A stretch of DNA of 64,000 bases from Dillenia suffruticosa (taxonomy: Eukaryota; Streptophyta; Magnoliopsida; Dilleniales; Dilleniaceae): NCBI GenBank assembly GCA_033439265.1, contig JAVTVX010000012.1:29830761-29894760 (forward strand), written 5' to 3'. The position numbers and the translations under genes were made by a program. A model generated the notes under the pieces. The model had not been told where the DNA came from and ran no database searches. It was given only the letters and a program-made list of their open reading frames with translations. Position 1 is the first letter of the stretch. The number at the start of each line of letters is the position of its first letter. This document shows positions 35,601 to 48,300 of the stretch, piece by piece.

Positions 35601-38600
35601 ATCTTTGCCTTCTAAATGAAATTGGTTAGGGAAAAAAGAATTGTGTGGAAGGCAATGACAATGAAAGAAAACTTTGCAAGAGAAAGTACCAGAAACATCA
35701 AGGCTCCAAAGTCTAGTATGAGGAGCATCAAGAGAATGTTATTTTCTTGTAGAAAGGAAATTCGGTAGGCAAACTCTATAATTTCCCTACCATTAGGATT
35801 TTCTTTGGAAAAAAAAATCCAAGATACCAAATGAGTCTTAGTAATAGAAATCTTTAGCAGCTTAATAAAGTGTAGACAGCAAATAGAGTCAAGGAAAACA
35901 GATGGAAAGGAGAGAATCTCTGATCTGAATGTCCTCCTGAATGAGAACATAGAACCATCTCCAACTTGAACAATACTATAGGAAGAAAAATCCAATAGAA
36001 CTAATAGATGAACCTCTGAGGGATACAATGAGACAAATTTCAGCTTGGCCTTGCATCCCTTCCATTGTGCGGAAGACTGTTCCTGTTATTGAAAACCTTA
36101 TTTTATATAGAACTGGTTTCTAAGGAAAAACATAGCCACTTGCAGGAATTATTTTTGGACACCAAGTTCCTGAGATGCAAACTACCCTCAGATTTAGATT
36201 TAGAAATGTACCCTTAACTCACCAAGTGATTCTCCTATCTAAACCACTCTCCAACCATAGGAAATCCTTCAACTTTTCAATCTTTTAGGCCACCTCTACA
36301 GAAATCTTAGAAAGGGAAAGAAAAAAAGGGGCTTCCTAGAGATACACAGAAGGATAAGAGTAACAAGCTCACCTAATGACAGAAGAGTACCCTTCCACCC
36401 ATCTAACCTTTTACTAGTCCTAGCAACAACAGGATTCCCAAAAAATGCAGACTCCTAAAATTGTCCCTCAAAAGGACTCCTGAGTTGAATGGAAGTAAAT
36501 GGAAAATGTAGATTTATATAGTTGCTAAAACTAAGTTGAGACTGACTTAGTTTAGTTGAGTTCTATTTTTTTCTTTTTTTTTTAAACGAAAATAATTTTA
36601 AAAAGAGCACCAACAGGGAGCTCTTAAACAAGGACTACAGAGAAAGATCCATTTAGAAGCACAAAAGCCTAAGGAAAACCTGAAGTGGAGGACTTTCAAC
36701 TAGCTCCCTATAAAATATTTCTCTACTCGTGACCTTCAATGGTAACAATTAAGTTCTTAATGTAATTCTAGCCAGGACCTTCAGTAGTAACAATTAAGTT
36801 CTTTGTGTATTAAATTTGCATCAAGTTCAATTGCTAACATGTGCAGGAATACCCAACGTTGTTAAGACCATGACTTGACAAAAAAGGGGCTAATGTGCCA
36901 ATGATAAAGGCCAAAAAAACCAATTGAAGATCATGAAGCATTTCTCTTCTATTAATTTGTCTTATATCTTCATGGAAGAAAATTATGTTGAGATTACTAC
37001 ATTTTTGTTTTCAATACTAGATTATTGCCCACTGTATTGCTACATTGACAAGCAATTGTCAAGTGACTATCTTACTAGAATCACATGAAGCATCTTCTTT
37101 CTTGCATGGTCACATTGTTGAAATGAAGATAAATTAGGAATCCTATTTGTAAGATTTCAAAGGGACAGTTTTTTCCCTGTCTTTGTTCAGTCTTTCCAGC
37201 CCATTTAGGGACCCAAATTAGGCCCTAAATGAGCTCTTCCTGTATGCATCTGCTGGGCCCTTTAGGGCCCAGATTTGCCCCTCTCAAAGGGGCCCAAAAA
37301 GAGGCCCCAACTGCTCCTTCAAATAGCCGTTGGATTTGCCCCAACGACTAGAAAAAAACTAGCCGTTGGGGACAGCCCCAATGGCTAGAAAAAAACTAGC
37401 CGTTGGGGACAGCCCCAACGGCCAGAAGAGGAGAGGGCAGTGCCCTCTCCTCTCTGTTTTCCCTCTTTTTCTCTCTCTTTAGCTCTCTTCTCTCTTTCTC
37501 TATAAATAGAGGCTCTAGTTGCTCTTTGAAGGCATGAAAATATGTCTTCAATTCTTGTACATTTCGTTTGAAAGATCAATAAAACTCTTGAAGTTTTTCA
37601 TTCCTTACTCATTGCTTGCTACTCTAAATCTTCAATACACATGAGTCTACAAATTTAACCTTATTATCACAAAATCTAGTACATTAGGCACCAGAACTGT
37701 TAACATTGAAAGGTGAGAAATGAAGCTGAAATTTCTTCAAACATTAAGGAATGGAAAAGAAAATTAGCGTTGTTGGTATTATAGGCTTTAACAACACTTT
37801 TTTCATGAATTTTTATACAAATAGCTTTATGTTTTCCTTTTTCTGTATCACCTATTGTTTCATGTCCAGTGTCACTTTGGTGGGCAGGTAAAGAAAGCCT
37901 TTCGGTTGACTTATTATCTAAATAATGTTATCTACAACTAAAAAGTCTACTCATGTTGTCGAACCATCCTCACGTAAAGGTCAACATAAGTATTGATATC
38001 CCAACTCTATCAAAAACAGCTTACATGGCGAATGTCAGATAAGGATCCTTTTCCGAGGGATGCTGATGTGCCTGTGAAATCCAAAACATCATCTATAAGT
38101 TGATATGCTAGTCCCTGGAAAAGAATTTAGAGCTGTATTAGTGATCCTTAAATACAGAGATTAACACAAACTCAAAAGGAGAAGGTGAAGTGTAGTTTTC
38201 TTTCATTGTAAATATTAACAAGCATTTGTGAGAAGGCTGAATGATAGAACTATAAGAGCAGGAGCATTGCACTCATCCATTGAGGACAAAATTTAAAGAG
38301 TTGAATGACCTAACTCATATATTCAAGTGAAGTGTAGTTTTCTTTCATTGTAAATATTAACTAGCAATTTGCCCCTGTTTTGTGAGAAGGCTGAAATGAT
38401 AAAACTGCAAAAGCAGGAGCATTGCACTCATCCATTGAGGACAAAATTTAAAGAGTTGAATGACCTAACTCACATATTCTTATGCTAAGAGAACATTTTA
38501 TGGGGATCACAGCAACTAGTCTTAAGGTAAGAGAGGCAATAGTATTGTGTTTTAAAAGAACATTCTGTACCCTGATTGAGCATATACAGCAGATTCAACT

Positions 38601-41600
38601 TACAAACCATCAAGTTTCCTGGCAAAAGCATTATATGTTTTCTTTTAGAATAAGCTTCCCTTAGACATAGGAACAAAAGCAAGAGAATTTCAAGAGAAAG
38701 ACAGACCAGATTCTTTCCATACTCATATGCAAGCATTGATACTTCTGCAGTTTGCCCAGCTAGTAGGGCGATTGCCTTGCAGCTGTTTGATATCAATGAT
38801 GCCGTTTTGTAGTATGTCTTCTGCAAATAATATTCCATGCTGCAACCATAAAAAAATGGAATTCACTTAGTTAAAACGAAAAGCTCAACACAGCAGGACA
38901 AACAACATGAGTATGCATGCTTAGAAGTATCTAATGCAACAGTATCAAAAACTTGTGGAGTAGGCAATGCTCTATGTTTCAGGTTTTCACATTCATAAGA
39001 TAAGGGCTAATCACCTGCACAAATGAGGTTCTGTGAGATCTTTTAACAATCTCACAGGGTGTCACAACATATGGCAAGGCTAGTAAGAACTGAATAAATG
39101 GTCTTCTTTTCTTTACTTACCCATCTTTCTTTAATGTAAATTTTAACACCAAAATTAGGACCTTTGATAATATAGGATTTGATTCCTCTTTACAAAACAC
39201 AGTTTCTAAAGAAATATAATAGAGGTTCTCTCTTTTTATTTTCATTATTTTTTTTCCACCTACGCACTTACCCATCCAGAAATTAATACCAGAAGTGACA
39301 GCTATCAAGCTTTGTTTTGCCAAATTTATCTACTGAATAGGCAATTGGAATCTTATCGGTTTTGCAGCCTAATCTGATGACAAAAAGGAATAATATGTAC
39401 AGAATTAATTGCTACAGATTAATTGGTACAGGCATCGCTTGTTTCTAGTCTACAATTTCGCCTCCTAAAAAAATGCATGTGTTGTCATTCAGACATACAA
39501 GGTACACATAATTAGCGACCAATATAATCAAATAGACATTTAATGCTAAGTAGGTGAACTGGCAAAAGTGGTGAAAAGATGTAGAAACAATAAGTTAAGA
39601 CTGAAGAGCTACCATCGGTCACAGAATGGTTACCATGCAAAAGAGAATGACATGTGAAAACAATAAGTCATACTTCAATGAACTACAGCCATAGCCCTAT
39701 TTAGTATCAAAGAAGAAAATTTTGTTCAATCCTTGAGAGTAGTGATACTTAATAGGCCTTAGCTATCTCAATTCTCGACTGTCCAAAATTTTTACCAATT
39801 TAAATGAAATAAATTGCTTACAATTCAACCAAGTACTTGGGGCTATGGAAAAGTGTAGACGACAAAGGTTTAACACGACAGTACCACTATCAGCATAATT
39901 ACAACTATGTTGATAAGTTAATTTGAATTGTGCAAGAAACAAAATTCAGAACCAATGGCCTTATTATCTTAGATGTATGAAAATACCACTGTCAGTGTAA
40001 TTATAACTATGTTGATAAGTTCATTTGAATTGTGCAAGAAACAAAATTCAGAAACAATTGCCTTATTATCTTAGATGTCAAAACTAAGTAAAAATATATT
40101 GATTGGCAACCTCATAAATCAGAATACAAAAGGATGCATGGAGGAGATTTAGCATCAGAATGTGGAAGAGAAAATAATAGTACATAATGACATCCCACAT
40201 TGAAATTGAAGGATATAGTCATCTGTTTCACTGGAATACATGCATAATCGATTAAGGAGGACAGAAACACTAAAAGAGGAACAGCATACCTACAGCGCTC
40301 ATCAGATGTAGTTGTCATTTGCATAGTTTCACCTGTAACAAGGTTCTCCAGAACTGTAGCAAGTAATGAGACAACCTGCACAATTAGACGCAGCCAGCAC
40401 ATTATATCAATGAATTTATACATAACTGTCTCACACTCATTTACCTACAAACACTCAATATTAAATTTATTTTAATTTTTTCCAAAAAACAAAAGAGAGA
40501 CGAACCCATGTAACAGTTTAGAGAGTTCAAAAGAGTAATTTCTGGAGCAGGGGGCAATTGCCAACCCGCTTAGCTCCGCTACTTGAAGATAATTGTATCA
40601 TGATTTGTAAGTGATAAAGGTATCATAAGATCAACTTTTCTCCATGGTGAAAATGTGCAAACTAGTGATCAGGCTCAAATGGAGTAGCTTGTTTATCCAG
40701 AAGGATGATGCTTGAACTTCACTCATTAAGTTGACCTTGGCTCAGAAAGTTGAAAGACCCTGGCTTAAGTTAAGATGAATTACTAGCTCTTCACAATCCG
40801 TGTTCCATTGGCCAAGCAAGTGGAGCGGTTTATGGGAGCTTTCTACTGTCTGAGGCAGATTTATTGTTTGAGATGCTGTCCACAAACTTAAACCGAGGGA
40901 AGGGGATCTTGGTTATGTAGTGCCCAAGAACACTGCCATACTGAGTAAGTTGTCAAAAAGACTTACCCTATATACTAATTCCTTACGACATATTTTTTGG
41001 GTATGTTTGGCATAAAAAAAAAAGAGGGCGAATATTGACCCCACGGTTGAGTTACTCATTTGGTAACCTCGAGATCACAGGTTCGAGGTGTGGAAACAGC
41101 CTCTTTGCAAAAATGCAAGAGACAGGCTGCGTATATATACATCCACTCTCCCCCTACCCCCCGCACTAAGCCGGGGAGCACTTACATCGGGTGAGCCCTT
41201 TTTTTTTTGGCATCCCCAAAAAAAAAATGTTGGATGCAAAAGACATATGAGCCCCTTTCACGGAAGCTCTAAAAATTCATTTTCAAGTTTATCCATTTTT
41301 CCATCTTATAAAATTCAAAGTGGCAAAGACTTTCATGTCTATTTCTAGTAATGCAATGTATATGGGTTGATGGCACTCCTAGCTTTTTCCCAGATCATTT
41401 CACATCTCATTTCTCCATATCACTCCTCTTACACCTTCTAGTGTAGCAACGACATCAATGGTTCTTGGAACCATAACCTATCAAAAAGAGAAACAAATTG
41501 GCGGCTTGGGAATTATTGATGTATTTTCTTGACTCATTTCACCTTTCTTAGCACCCTGATTCGTTTCATACTAAAGGTATTATCTTCTAATTACTTCATC

Positions 41601-42365: not shown

Positions 42366-45300
42366 AATATATATATATACCTAAAATATGTTAAATTAAT
42401 TTGTGCGAATTTTTCTACGCCACTCATTTCTATCCAATATCATCTTCTCGTCTACATTCTTAACTATCACATCTTTACGAATAACTCGCATCCAAGTTTT
42501 CAACGGTTTACCTCTGTGTTTTTCTAATTCTCTTATATTTAAGTTTTCGGTTCTCCTAACCGGTGTGTCATTAGGTCTTCTTTGCGATTGATCTTTTTTA
42601 TCTAATACAGAAGAGAAAAGGATCATTTCTTGCAGCTCTTAACCCATCTCAGTGAGGATTCTGAAGAGTATTCTCTGGAACATACAAAATTGAATTGTAT
42701 GACTTCAACCATTTAAAATGTTTTGCTAATCCTCCCGGTCTCCTTTTAATTATTCTCTGAAGCCAAAGGATAACTCATCCTCATCATTTTTTTTTCCTCC
42801 TCATCTTTTTTCCTTTTTCTATCAAAAGAAAAATAAGGATTCTCTATCATCCCCTCCACATAACCTACTCAACCCCAACCATACTAGCAGTTCATAGATT
42901 TATTGCTCCACCCAGGCATGTAGATTTGAATTTAAGAACAGGTGTTTTAATGAAATTTGGAATTTAAAAGCACTAATTACGTAGTTGTCTATGCTTGATG
43001 TACTTCCAGAGCATTATTCAAACAACTAATTCTCTTTCACAGAAATCTGCACGCACAACACTTACTCAGAGATAGAGTGGAAAAGTTCATCTTTCCAATT
43101 ACATGCGACATTCAAAACTAAACATGATTACATGTACCATCAGAATAAGCAACAATAAATAAAAAGGAAAAGAGAAAGGTAGTAAGCAAAGCAACTTTCA
43201 CTTACAAATAACTCGTACACTTCTATTCCTGCATTAGATGTTTGAATAAAAGAAATGTTACACATTCAACAATGAATTTGGAAAGCAAAACATGTACCTC
43301 TGTGTTTTTCAAAGAGGCCAGTGCAACACAAGCTCTGGAAAGCAGAAAATCTCCAGCTAAGACTGCCAACTGTGCCAACATGTAAAAAAAGAAATTACAT
43401 TAGACTATAAATTCTACAGAAATGATTGTTGACTATTGGTATGCACCTAGATATCATCAGAAAGAACTATTCTAAAAAGTGCATATTTTAGAAAGAGATC
43501 TTCTACAAGAAAATTTAGAAACAAGTAAAAGGAAATATTTAAAAAAATAGTAATTTTCTTATTTTACTTGATAACTATCTTTTTAAAAATAATAGTTACC
43601 TAAGTTTTAGAATTCTTCATATTGAGAATGATTTTAGGAGCTTATTTTTAGTAAGAATTCTATTTTGTTGTAAACTCTAGTTTTTCCTATTTAAAGGGAG
43701 TATGATCAATAAAGAAGTAAATCTAATTCTCATAAAAGTAGGGTGGTAGGAAACTTGTTATAGAAAAAATTCCCGGTCGCCAAATCTAGGGTCTAAGAGA
43801 GGAAAAACTTTAGCAAGGGAATAACGGAATTTCCTATAGAGTGTCCATTGAATAGATCCTGTACTAGGGCTCACGTCAATTAGATATTAAAGCCAGCCAT
43901 CATGGAAAACTCCACAAAATGGTTAAATTGGATGGAGAGATTCATGAGGGAATATGAGCGGCAAATGGAGCAACAACTGGCTAGGGTCGAGGAACTCCAG
44001 CAGTCCAACATCAAGTTGCTGCAACGACAGCAGACAGCACTGATCTGATAGATGGAAGGGCTTCTACGAGAGCTGCAGGGGGCAGCAAGGTCCAAGAGGT
44101 GAGGAGCAACAGCTACACTCTTGCAGACCAAGGAAAGGAAATGAGTAGTCCATTGGAAGGAGGGACTGCCATCCCCAGAAAGTACCCTGACCTCAGGGGC
44201 ACAGCAAAACCACTCAATATGGCATCAGATAGTGTGCCTCAGACCTCTTTGGCTATTGGTCATCCTTCCCCTCCTAAAGTATCTTCCATTACTACCACAA
44301 ATGAAAATAAGGGAGTTAGTATTACCAAATCTCATGAGGTTCCTGGAAAATATAGTACAGATGGGTCTACTTCAGCTACTGGCAAAAGTGGAAGCCTATC
44401 TCTTGATGCTTTAGCAAAAGCCCAAAAAAAAAGAAATCTTTACAAATGCAGAAGGAATTGGCAGAGAAGCTGAAGAAAATTCCTTTGTTGAATAAGGGTG
44501 CTAGTACATGTTCAGATGGCAGCCTCTCTGTAGGACCCGGGGGGGGGGAACAAAACCCCTTCCCTGTGTACCAGCAAATTACCTCTGCATGTTTCATCTG
44601 TTGTTATTGTTACTGCTTCTATGAAGGTGGAACCAAGTGCAACTACTTTGCCTACTGTGGCTTCTGTGAACCCATCTATGGGCAGCATAGCTGGTCTGGC
44701 TGGTCTTAAAAATATTCCCAACATTGAAGCTGTAGAACACACAAAGGAGCTAGCTTCGAAGATGTGATTTCGCCAGGATCCTGAATTTGCCCCTCTTATA
44801 AATATGTTTCCAGGTCAGTTAACAACTGACCTAGCAATCTAGCAGGAAGCCATTCAAGGCCCCCCTTCATCTGGATGCTCTTGTCTGGGAAGTAGATGAG
44901 CATGGAAATGTCATAAATGTGCCTATTGCATATGCTTTTGTTTTCAATTGCCAGATGGGCAGGGGAAGGACAACCATTCTCAAAGCAGGGACAACTTCAT
45001 TTAAAGAGTAAGTGGAGGCTCAGGCAAAGGATCTCTTGCAAAGGAAGCTGCGTACAGAGGAATTTGAAGAAAAGGAAAGAGTGGCAATTGAAAGAGTTGG
45101 AAGGACTTATGTTGGACATTGCTGCTGTCAGAGAAAAAATTACAAGATTGAAAGTAGCTAAGGCTGCAATGGGTAGAGCTGTTGAGCAAGAATTTCTAGG
45201 ACAGTGGGCAGCTCTCTGCCAGGAAATTGAAGGCGCTAAGCAGGGTATGTTAAAGTCCAAAGAAGAGGATAAGGGTGGAGGCTTATTGGGAGCTCTTGAA

Positions 45301-48300
45301 AACTTAAGAAAGCCCATCCTGAATTTGAGCTTGAGGACAGGCTCTTTGTCCTCGAGGAGAGTAATGATAAGCACTTGGATATCATCAGAAAGAATTATTT
45401 TAGAAAGTGTATATCATTAGAAAGAGTTTTTTTACTAGAATATTTAAAAACAGAAAATATTTTCAAAAAAATAGTGGTTTTCTTATTTAGTTAATAGCTA
45501 AATAGTAGTTATATTAGTTTTCAAATTTTTCATATTAAAAATGATTTTAGGAGTTTATTTTTAGTAAAAAAATTTATTTTATTGTAAACTCTAATTTCCT
45601 CATGGAGTATGATCGATAAAGAAATAAATTTAATTCTCATAAAAGTAGTATGGTATGAAACTTGTTAGGGAATAAATTCCTAACCGTAGCAAGGGAAGCA
45701 AGAAATTCCCTGCAGAATATCCATGGACTAAATCTTGTACTAAGCCTCATATCAATTTTGTACTACAAGGAGAGAACAGCCACAATTATTTCATTTCTAT
45801 AGCATGTAATGGATATCAGGACTTCCAATAGACACTGCCAAACAGCTGATGGTTAATGAATTTGGCTTTAAGTTTGAACTTCTTTTATGACCACTGGTCA
45901 AAAGGCCAGGGCCTTATTGTTCTTTAACTTTCTTTTTTTCTCAAGCAATAAAGTATTGTAACAACATGCTCTCAGTACATCTACTTGAGGAACAAAAGCA
46001 ATGTATATCTCCTTTAGCTGGTCAACCAAAAGGCCTCCTTAATGCACCAACTCATCTAGAAGAAGTGGAGATCAAAAATCTAAAAGTGGGCAGAACAAAT
46101 GTTAGAACCGAAATCCCAATGTCTAACTTATAGCATCATATATCAAATAGTGATCAACAATAGGAGCACCATTGAGCATACATAGCAACAGAAATCATGA
46201 GCATCCTTCTCAAAGCGTGCTCACCTAATGCAAATCAGACTCTGTTTTACCTCATTTTAGAGGAAGACGGCAATTACAAGAGAAACATAACAATTCTCTA
46301 CATTGAGAGAGCAAAAATAGAGAGAGCAAAAAACTAAGTTACTCTACAAGAAACATAATAAAACAACAATAACTACATAGTAGTAAATACCTTGTTTCCC
46401 ATCACAAAATTTAAGGAGCCGACGCCTCGTCTTGTTTCTGCATCATCCAAGACGTCATCATGCATAAGGCTTGCCACCTAGAAAATAAATGATATTAAAT
46501 TGAAGATGTGAGAGATTTGAAACAGATTATAACAAAAAATGCCAATATGATATTACACGCCAGTTTTTCCCAAGCGAAAGACAAGGCATAAGTTTCTGTA
46601 ATTTCAAATGCCCAAATTCTCAAATATTCTATCTTATGTTTGCACAAGTTTAAGTGTTGACCTGATATAATAGCAGAAAATGATATATGATAGCTATTCT
46701 GTGCAATGAAAAACATGATTGTACAATGCAGAGACAATGTTGATTTGATAATTAACAACTCCTCAAGATAATTTCACCCCAATTGTCAGGAGCAGTGAGC
46801 TCACTATAGATTATTCACAATGATTTTAAACTTCTAAAAAACTACTTGGGAAAAAAAAATCAACCTCAGCAAAAAATTTGACTCAACCTCACAGTTGTCT
46901 TGCAATAATGAAACAGAACATCTCTTAATAAGAGATACCTTCTCCTTTTAATTAAATTTTGCAGAAAAAAGCCATAAACAAGATTTTTATCATCCACCCA
47001 TTACATGCAAATTTTAGGCAAATAAAGGACTCGCCACGAAAGAGCTGAAAGAAGGGTAATGCCCAGCACTGAAGAACTGCTTTTAAAGAATTTATTAAGC
47101 ATTCAAAACAAGGATGCTCCAGCATCAGCGTGTCGACCTCAAGTTCCAAAAATCCCTCTCTTTGGTAAAGCTCAACTCAAACTCGGTAGTCAAACTAAGC
47201 CTTTATCCCAACTTAGTTGGGGCTGGCTATATGAACCTGTTACACATAGTTTGAAGCAGCATTTGGTGTGGGATGTGTGATAACAAATAGCAAATACACC
47301 AGTCAGACAGATTTTCCAGCAACAGACATAAAGAACTCAAAACAAGCCAAGAAACTAACATGGATCATCTCCGTGACCTCAGCTATGCATTGTTGTCTTG
47401 TCCGGAGTTCCATTGATAAGGTATCAACCACCTCATGTGAAGCGGATCCAGGTATTGAAATGTTCACAGCTGTTGCCATCAACAACAGAATCTGCACAGA
47501 ACATATGCAGAGATGCCCAATAAGAAAGCAGAGGAAATGGTAACAAAAACAGAGAAAAGAGTCAATATCATATCAATCAATAAACTAGATCTTTCTGCAC
47601 TAAGCAACCAATTTAGCATGTATATCTACATGTCAAAGACTTTGAAAATTTTGTAGAATCTGTGCACTTCACCCATAGGTTTGCAAGAAAGAGGTTGGGT
47701 GAGCAAGAGCAATCAATAATCAGTTTCTGAAATATTGAAATCTCAGGTCCACTAACATAGTGAAAATCAGCAAACAAGATCAAACAAATCCTAGTACCAG
47801 ATCCACAATATGGTTGCTATCTTGTTTTATTGAAGTTCATGCAATCAAAAATCTCAAGGCCCATATTTGCATGCTATGCAAGCTTTATGTTGGTACAACC
47901 CATCATAACCCTCCTTTGTTGCTTCTTTTACCCCGAACTCCTGGAAGAAATTTGGGTACGTAACAGCCAGGACAGCAGTTCTGCAACATTAAATCCTCAT
48001 CACCCTGTTTCCCTTGCAACAACCCTAGAATTTTTTTTATAGGCTATAATTGCTACAAACTAATAGGAATTCTATACAAATAAAATTACTAAATAAACTT
48101 CTTGTCATAATCCTGCAGTATGCTAAATATTTCCTCATTTGTGATGCATGATTATGAGTAGAGACAATAATGGAGAATGGCTAATACTTACAGTGGGACG
48201 GAACCTCTTTCCTTCAACCCCCATCTTGAAAAAGTACTCAGCGGCTGAAGCAAGCTTGGGTACCTAGATGACATTTAAACCACACGTAGTCACATTATTG

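Follow-up and report, generated by a model that had tools for sequence, protein, structure and literature searches.

Host gene fragments inside LTR elements have been described in maize, rice and sorghum, with at least 189 captures in maize (PMC2774510) and hundreds in rice and sorghum (PMC3726574). The Bs1 element of maize is an LTR element with host exons that, according to a recent account, brings together fragments of three host genes (PMC13317346). Among the gene-bearing TRIMs of soybean, which are small LTR elements present in several copies, GmaRetroS15 is reported to carry spliced fragments of three genes (PMC4717578). The initial annotation of the DNA analyzed here, a stretch of 64,000 nucleotides from Dillenia suffruticosa (hereafter the window), described host-gene capture by LTR elements as known but uncommon; Bs1 bears out the first part, but the second needs tempering given the numbers from the grasses.

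The window contains an old, non-autonomous LTR element at 43437-45754, with an interior of 1486 bp (Table 1). Its two terminal repeats, which had been proposed to be an LTR pair, share 80.7% identity across 388 aligned columns (K2P 0.23), have TG..CA termini and align with a local score of 309, where 200 shuffles reached at most 32; other copies of the element show the same TG and CA termini. The end of the element, previously placed at 45761, is corrected to 45754. Downstream of the 5' LTR, a candidate primer site, ATTAGATATTAAAGCC, agrees in 9 of 13 letters, counted by eye, with the initiator-Met-tRNA motif, and a candidate purine tract, GAGGAGAGTAA, likewise read by eye, precedes the 3' LTR. 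Pfam detected no polymerase domain (reverse transcriptase, integrase) in the interior pieces scanned, in line with the initial annotation, and the element is classed as non-autonomous only, not as an autonomous Ty3/gypsy element. TRIMs have very short LTRs and interiors, of a few hundred bp, and the present element is too large for this class.

The initial annotation further suggested that the coiled-coil sequences flanking the capture may belong to the element itself. The 5' flank was found again in those layouts that were read at their 5' end and is therefore probably the element's own; the label "gag-like" is our interpretation, and Pfam yielded no retrotransposon match there. The 3' flank (segment III), in contrast, is missing from some layouts and, in type G (L070), does not lie between the EF-Ts piece and the start of the tail. 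Pfam scans of segment III and of parental PRP3 exon B yielded a single weak YwqH-like match, below the cutoff. The tail, presumably the 3' end of pol, is present in types A to F and H, with only its beginning seen in type G. A weak PP4R3 match that straddles the 3' LTR is below the Pfam cutoff and was taken as chance. The possible target duplication in the window is weak; in the further copies for which both ends could be defined, the two sides agree in 3 of 5 letters in L006 and in 4 of 5 in L016 and L024.

Table 1. Positions of the element, its captured pieces and the surrounding intron in the window
Feature	Position	Strand	Remarks
Host intron, polyprenyl diphosphate synthase gene	43370..46390	-	3021 bp
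Possible left target duplication, ACTAT	43432..43436	+	right side ATTTT, 3/5 letters, weak
5' LTR	43437..43878	+	442 bp, TG..CA
Primer-binding-site-like stretch ATTAGATATTAAAGCC	43879..43894	+	read by eye
Gag-like coiled-coil element start	43903..44196	+	seen in copies of types A, B, C, D, E, G and H whose 5' end was covered
Captured PRP3 exon A fragment	44205..44487	+	96.3% to C34 gene, 270 columns
Captured PRP3 exon B fragment	44488..44925	+	86.9% to C34 gene, 436 columns
Paladin (PTP-like phytase) stub	44920..44976	+	three joined pieces: 44920-44934, 44935-44954, 44955-44976
Segment III, coiled-coil-like	44977..45252	+	lacking in L067 (type E) and L074 (type H), as far as read
Element tail, start approximate	45253..45364	+	..KSKEEDKGGG..LEDRLFVLEESND-like, purine-rich end GAGGAGAGTAA
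3' LTR	45365..45754	+	390 bp

A DNA search of the plant's own genome identified two loci, one on C34 and one on C16, to which 44204/44208-44925 aligns as two blocks with the same split point. The C34 parent is proven to be an intron-bearing PRP3 gene, a further exon of which matches the Pfam domains PRP3 (2.3e-48) and Prp3_C (1.7e-43) and human Prp3 (3.9e-68); C16 is a putative PRP3 locus, assigned by similarity only. The two-block matches and the domains of the C34 gene show that the PRP3 reading is not due to chance. The three PRP3 peptides quoted at the outset, AEKLKKIPLLNKGA, FRQDPEFAPLINMFPGQL and VDEHGNVINV, are indeed present in this order, but in shifting frames, and their derivation from a retroelement protein is ruled out by the parental gene. 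The capture had been called intronless, and it is: exon A passes into exon B precisely where the parental splice sites lie, and the parental intron is gone. In the window copy, a perfect run of 67 nt spans this exon junction, and perfect 21-mers shared with the C34 exons number 168 of 701. Exon A differs from the parent by 3.7% and exon B by 13%, a greater disparity than a single clock predicts, and about 10 nt at the 5' junction of PRP3 are unexplained. PDB searches with the PRP3 pieces of the element gave unrelated matches in one case and none in another, and a search with parental exon B returned only unrelated matches.

PRP3 is not the only host gene in the window copy. The initial annotation missed a stub of paladin (Pfam PF14566, 1.8e-6; parental locus L068) that lacks both the 124-nt parental intron and an exonic GT-AG piece of 69 nt; the paladin exon end GCTTTTGTTTTCAATTGCCAG matches at 21 of 21 positions and is followed directly by the next exon. 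The GT-AG piece is missing from 19 of the 20 aligned copies (L029, the twentieth, is unreadable at this site), and type D has a second internal GT-AG loss. Across the family, the captured sources are PRP3, paladin, a SAC3/GANP gene, EF-Ts, a MED15-like gene and a zinc-finger gene, MED15 and JMJ25 being names that we presume from motifs. Parental loci for all six are present in the same genome. Introns are missing from the pieces of five, including SAC3, the MED15-like gene and the zinc-finger gene, and no missing intron could be shown for the EF-Ts piece. The zinc-finger piece matches zf-4CXXC_R1 at 0.0021, below the Pfam cutoff. For segment X, Pfam gave nothing, and the SAC3 locus matches the stretch around it at only two short places, one of 87 bp (80%) and one of 43 bp (88%). 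A DNA-level capture, through the repair of a double-strand break, through gene conversion or through a processed pseudogene landing in a resident element that later spread, could account for intronless sequence, since a processed pseudogene likewise lacks introns, and for microhomology, which also marks end joining. This route nevertheless appears highly improbable in view of intron-free pieces of five genes in one slot, the GT-AG losses in paladin and in type D, and junctions common to dispersed copies, which together indicate RNA intermediates.

Sister copies, for which the initial annotation proposed a search, exist and are dispersed in the genome. Most of the PRP3 part is held by 11 loci, but other layouts contain other host genes instead, so that PRP3 is not a constant component of the family. 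There are at least eight layouts, differing in the middle; the size of the family is a lower bound, and loci L032 and L033 were left out of the analysis. A 5' stub of PRP3 is retained ahead of MED15 in the type C copy L016 and the type E copy L067. Microhomology was read by eye at the junctions of PRP3 and paladin (TGCCTA, 44920-44925, common to both), MED15 and EF-Ts (AGCAGGA), zinc finger and SAC3 (CTTATGA and GAAAAG around one mismatch) and MED15 and PRP3 (about 3 nt). The deletion in type B (approximately 44241-44787) was considered as a splice product and rejected, its borders, read by eye, being not GT-AG but sharing CCTC. Spliced host sequence is compatible with every RNA route, among them read-through transduction, whereby an element beside a host gene is co-transcribed with it and the transcript is spliced and reverse transcribed. 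This mechanism has been suggested for certain plant elements and is the one given for Bs1 in a 2026 review (PMC13317346). For the present family we consider transduction unlikely: the contributing genes reside on different contigs, several of them are represented by internal exon pieces only, some pieces are nested (zinc-finger within SAC3, MED15-like within PRP3), and the microhomology at the switch points fits template switching better.

The captured PRP3 sequence is now neutral and broken. Differences are nearly evenly distributed over the three codon positions (218:180:194 in the PRP3 part of 11 copies) and all 11 copies contain frameshift indels; selection on the captured PRP3 was rejected on this evidence. 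The same evidence makes it extremely improbable that a chimeric protein under selection is, or ever was, specified by this segment, in the manner of the Bs1 chimeric gene, even if some frame may have been open early in the life of the family. The tree of the 11 copies and the two parental loci is a star, which speaks for a burst; of its 10 forks only the pairing of the parental loci is starred (97/95, with a bootstrap that had not settled). At nine columns, most copies share a base that is found in neither parental locus, which speaks for a putative common master copy. LTR pairs were obtained from 15 of 26 loci (K2P 0.193-0.320), the other 11 yielding none.

Taken together, we consider it very likely that a non-autonomous LTR element captured spliced host mRNA by template switching, followed by a burst and neutral decay. 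Inside a single particle, reverse transcriptase would have switched between element RNA and spliced PRP3 mRNA and then returned to the element at the earlier captured paladin piece; the PRP3 chimera would then have spread in a short burst, and the window copy would have landed in an intron in antisense orientation, its sequence drifting neutrally thereafter. Other lineages have pieces of the MED15-like, EF-Ts, SAC3 and zinc-finger genes in this slot. The LTRs, the spliced captures, the parental loci, the copies with their layouts and junctions and the neutral decay are seen in the sequences; co-packaging, the template switching itself and the order of captures are inferred. The element is probably Ty3/gypsy-related; because neither a reverse transcriptase nor a complete gag was found, we infer both this affiliation and a partner element that would supply the enzymes. 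We count against this explanation as a whole the lack of a reverse transcriptase or complete gag, the 3/5 target duplication in the window, junctions with only 3 nt of microhomology, the roughly 10 unexplained nt at the 5' junction of PRP3, the divergence gap between exons A and B, the 11 of 26 loci without an LTR pair and the EF-Ts piece without a missing intron.

The antisense position in an intron of a ubiquinone-pathway gene, as initially described, stands. The host exons match Pfam polyprenyl_synt (2.3e-7, with further matches at 0.011 and 8.8e-5, both below the cutoff), and the gene presumably encodes a solanesyl-type polyprenyl diphosphate synthase. The element occupies 2318 bp of the intron and lies 67 bp from the acceptor. 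The intron RNA, being complementary to spliced PRP3 mRNA, could link the two genes: if it persisted or were made into small RNAs, a core splicing factor would be tuned by the ubiquinone-pathway gene together with the remaining copies of the family. In a wider sense, the family may be a specialised gene collector with a slot repeatedly overwritten by spliced host mRNAs. We regard this scenario as a long shot.

The family offers a readable stepwise record of host-exon gathering: a single genome displays the splice joints and the switch points along with the parental loci, so that the template-switch model of plant exon shuffling becomes testable by comparison. Copies with and without PRP3 are natural controls for asking whether captured pieces give rise to small RNAs directed against the parent genes. 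The family resembles the LTR gene captures of maize, rice and sorghum in carrying host gene fragments (PMC2774510, PMC3726574), and the soybean TRIMs in its spliced pieces and several copies (PMC4717578); the TRIMs have 5-bp duplications, for which the candidate in the window copy is weak. It differs from these TRIMs in its larger LTRs (442 and 390 bp) and interior (1486 bp) and in layouts that vary between copies by the swapping of host pieces. Unlike Bs1, it draws on at least six host genes and is represented by many copies scattered through the genome, in whose shared slot later captures appear to have replaced earlier ones; no chimeric protein is seen. The capture of spliced exons by LTR elements is already known from Bs1 and GmaRetroS15; what is unusual is that six host genes were swapped serially in a single slot.

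A search of the genome of the window (596 Mb, 37 contigs) with 44210-44925 as the query yielded 41 matches out of 36 candidates. The two parental PRP3 loci, on contigs C34 and C16, each match in two blocks with the same split point; the C16 locus was read over its matching blocks only. At C34, the order is exon, GT-AG intron, exon, and the element contains both exons fused at 44487/44488. Because this intron is absent from the element and the C34 gene encodes PRP3 domains further downstream (Pfam PRP3, 2.3e-48; Prp3_C, 1.7e-43; human Prp3, 3.9e-68), the captured piece is intronless PRP3, as the initial annotation had proposed. The window copy differs from the C34 gene by 3.7% in exon A (the part up to 44487) vs 13% in exon B, the greatest contrast among 11 copies, which could reflect chance or gene conversion.

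The LTR pair and the antisense intronic position claimed for this element both hold. Across 388 aligned columns, identity between the repeats is 80.7% (K2P 0.23), and the local score is 309, compared with at most 32 in 200 shuffles; each repeat has TG at its start and CA at its end. In the interior, a putative primer-site-like stretch directly follows the 5' LTR, and a putative purine-rich stretch is located ahead of the 3' LTR. The target duplication of the window copy is weak (ACTAT/ATTTT, 3 of 5 letters); in the other copies with both ends resolved, the agreement is 3/5 (L006), 4/5 (L016) and 4/5 (L024). The element is located 67 bp from the acceptor of a 3021-bp intron (43370-46390) of a polyprenyl diphosphate synthase gene, presumably of the solanesyl type, the upstream exon of which matches Pfam polyprenyl_synt (2.3e-7), with two further exons below the cutoff (0.011 and 8.8e-5). 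It makes up 77% of this intron, where the acceptor is still AG and the donor still GT. By eye, host-gene introns also contain direct repeats in pairs of similar copies, about 100 bp long (38220-38490 and 39900-40110), and recurring CCGTTGGGG/CCCCAACGG words at 37040-37660 look like part of another retroelement.

Directly 3' of PRP3, the window element carries a piece of paladin, a PTP-like phytase; Pfam PF14566 matches the window ORF at 1.8e-6 and a parental exon at 2.6e-28. The parent, on C17, is represented by three exon blocks among 17 matches; an exon ending GCTTTTGTTTTCAATTGCCAG is separated from the next by a GT-AG intron of 124 nt, and these two exons are fused in the window. A 69-nt stretch of exon (starting GTAAAG, ending ACACAG) is missing from the window piece as well, and likewise from 19 of the 20 other copies aligned over the joint, L029 being too diverged to read there. 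The type D copy L064 (see table) lacks another paladin stretch, running from GTGAGT to the normal acceptor, a loss that looks like an alternative splice.

Copies of the element differ in the middle slot, which holds pieces of several other host genes. The SAC3/GANP parent on C1 was recovered as four exon blocks in one search and six in another, with Pfam matches of 1.8e-20 and 6.7e-16 on its exons. The EF-Ts piece (1.9e-21 against EF-Ts structures) has parental loci on C12 (89%; the one read) and C27 (88%). For the MED15-like piece (a putative name), there are three parental loci of two blocks each; the one on C21 was read, and the other two are on C8. The zinc-finger parent on C37, putatively JMJ25-like, comprises two blocks (Pfam 0.0021, below the cutoff). 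One type G copy, L070 (C12:29947200-29949150), lies about 54 kb past the window end on the same contig, and L028 and C26:9358580-9360506 are two adjoining element bodies in the same orientation, as if with one LTR in common.

The window element and layouts of its copies. Segment III is coiled-coil-like; segment X is another middle piece. Locus counts are lower bounds, the matches scored being the best 40 of 151, 40 of 74 and 40 of 87 in three of the searches.
Feature	Position	Strand	Structure	Loci
LTR element	43437-45754	+	two direct LTRs, 442 and 390 bp	
Type A			PRP3 + paladin stub + segment III	11 (L001-L011, window included)
Type B			as type A minus about 44241-44787, lost at CCTC repeat	9; both junction sides seen in 8
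Type C			MED15-like piece in place of 44235-44688	6; L016 read, 3 more aligned over the bulk of the piece, L018 over 66 bp and L019 over 127 bp only
Type D			longer paladin, SAC3/GANP and zinc-finger pieces, PRP3 absent	8, seen from tail side; longer sequence for L064 and L065, the latter without part
Type E			PRP3 stub, MED15-like, EF-Ts	14 with MED15-like and EF-Ts <=20 bp apart by coordinates; L067 read
Type F			MED15-like piece adjoining segment III	3, by coordinates only
Type G			segment X, then EF-Ts	10 by abutting coordinates; L070 read as far as tail start
Type H			segment X, then tail	L074 read

The absence of parental introns from captured pieces shows that their capture went through an RNA intermediate; the EF-Ts piece shows no missing intron, its match to the parent being unbroken. 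By eye and with no chance control, the switch points share short words, namely TGCCTA (PRP3/paladin), AGCAGGA (MED15/EF-Ts) and CTTATGA-n-GAAAAG (zinc-finger/SAC3), with about 3 nt at the MED15/PRP3 borders. SAC3 sequence encloses the zinc-finger piece of L064, and the MED15-like piece of L016 is likewise embedded in PRP3; such nesting would correspond to a template switch out and back. Missing introns, switch words and nested pieces fit a model in which reverse transcriptase would switch templates when element RNA and spliced host mRNA are packaged together. PRP3 appears to have preceded MED15 in L016 and L067 because a PRP3 remnant sits ahead of MED15 there. The paladin capture is probably older still than that of PRP3, given that a paladin stub persists in those type A, B and C copies that can be read at the joint and that type D lacks PRP3 but holds a longer piece of paladin.

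The tree of 11 PRP3 copies is a star, in which the sole starred fork of 10 joins the two parental loci (97/95, bootstrap not settled); the capture therefore probably predates the duplication of the C34 and C16 loci. In nine columns, most copies share a base missing from both parental loci, as would be expected from a single master copy. K2P between LTRs ranges from 0.193 to 0.320 in the 15 of 26 loci that give a pair and, at assumed rates of 2.5e-9 to 6.5e-9 substitutions per site per year, the value of 0.23 for the window copy corresponds to roughly 18-46 million years. The captured PRP3 is in neutral decay, as indicated by nearly even differences from the parents across codon positions (218:180:194 in 11 copies), frameshift indels in all 11 copies and in-frame stops in 8. 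Of 701 21-mers, the window copy has 168 in common with the C34 exons, the highest number among the 11 copies, and it matches these exons in a perfect 67-nt run spanning the exon joint; the host-intron RNA is the strand complementary to the captured PRP3. These shared 21-mers and the complementary intron RNA may allow an effect of the window copy on PRP3.

Among the papers listed in literature searches, none was recognised as an account of the Dillenia element family or of LTR capture of PRP3. Gene capture by LTR elements is known on a large scale, with 672 genes in rice and 1,343 in sorghum (PMC3726574). Bs1 (PMC13317346) and GmaRetroS15 (PMC4717578) each hold fragments of three host genes, whereas the Dillenia family carries, across copies and in the same slot, pieces of at least six. 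What differs from the known captures is that one slot holds different host genes in different copies, with signs that later captures overwrote earlier ones in it.
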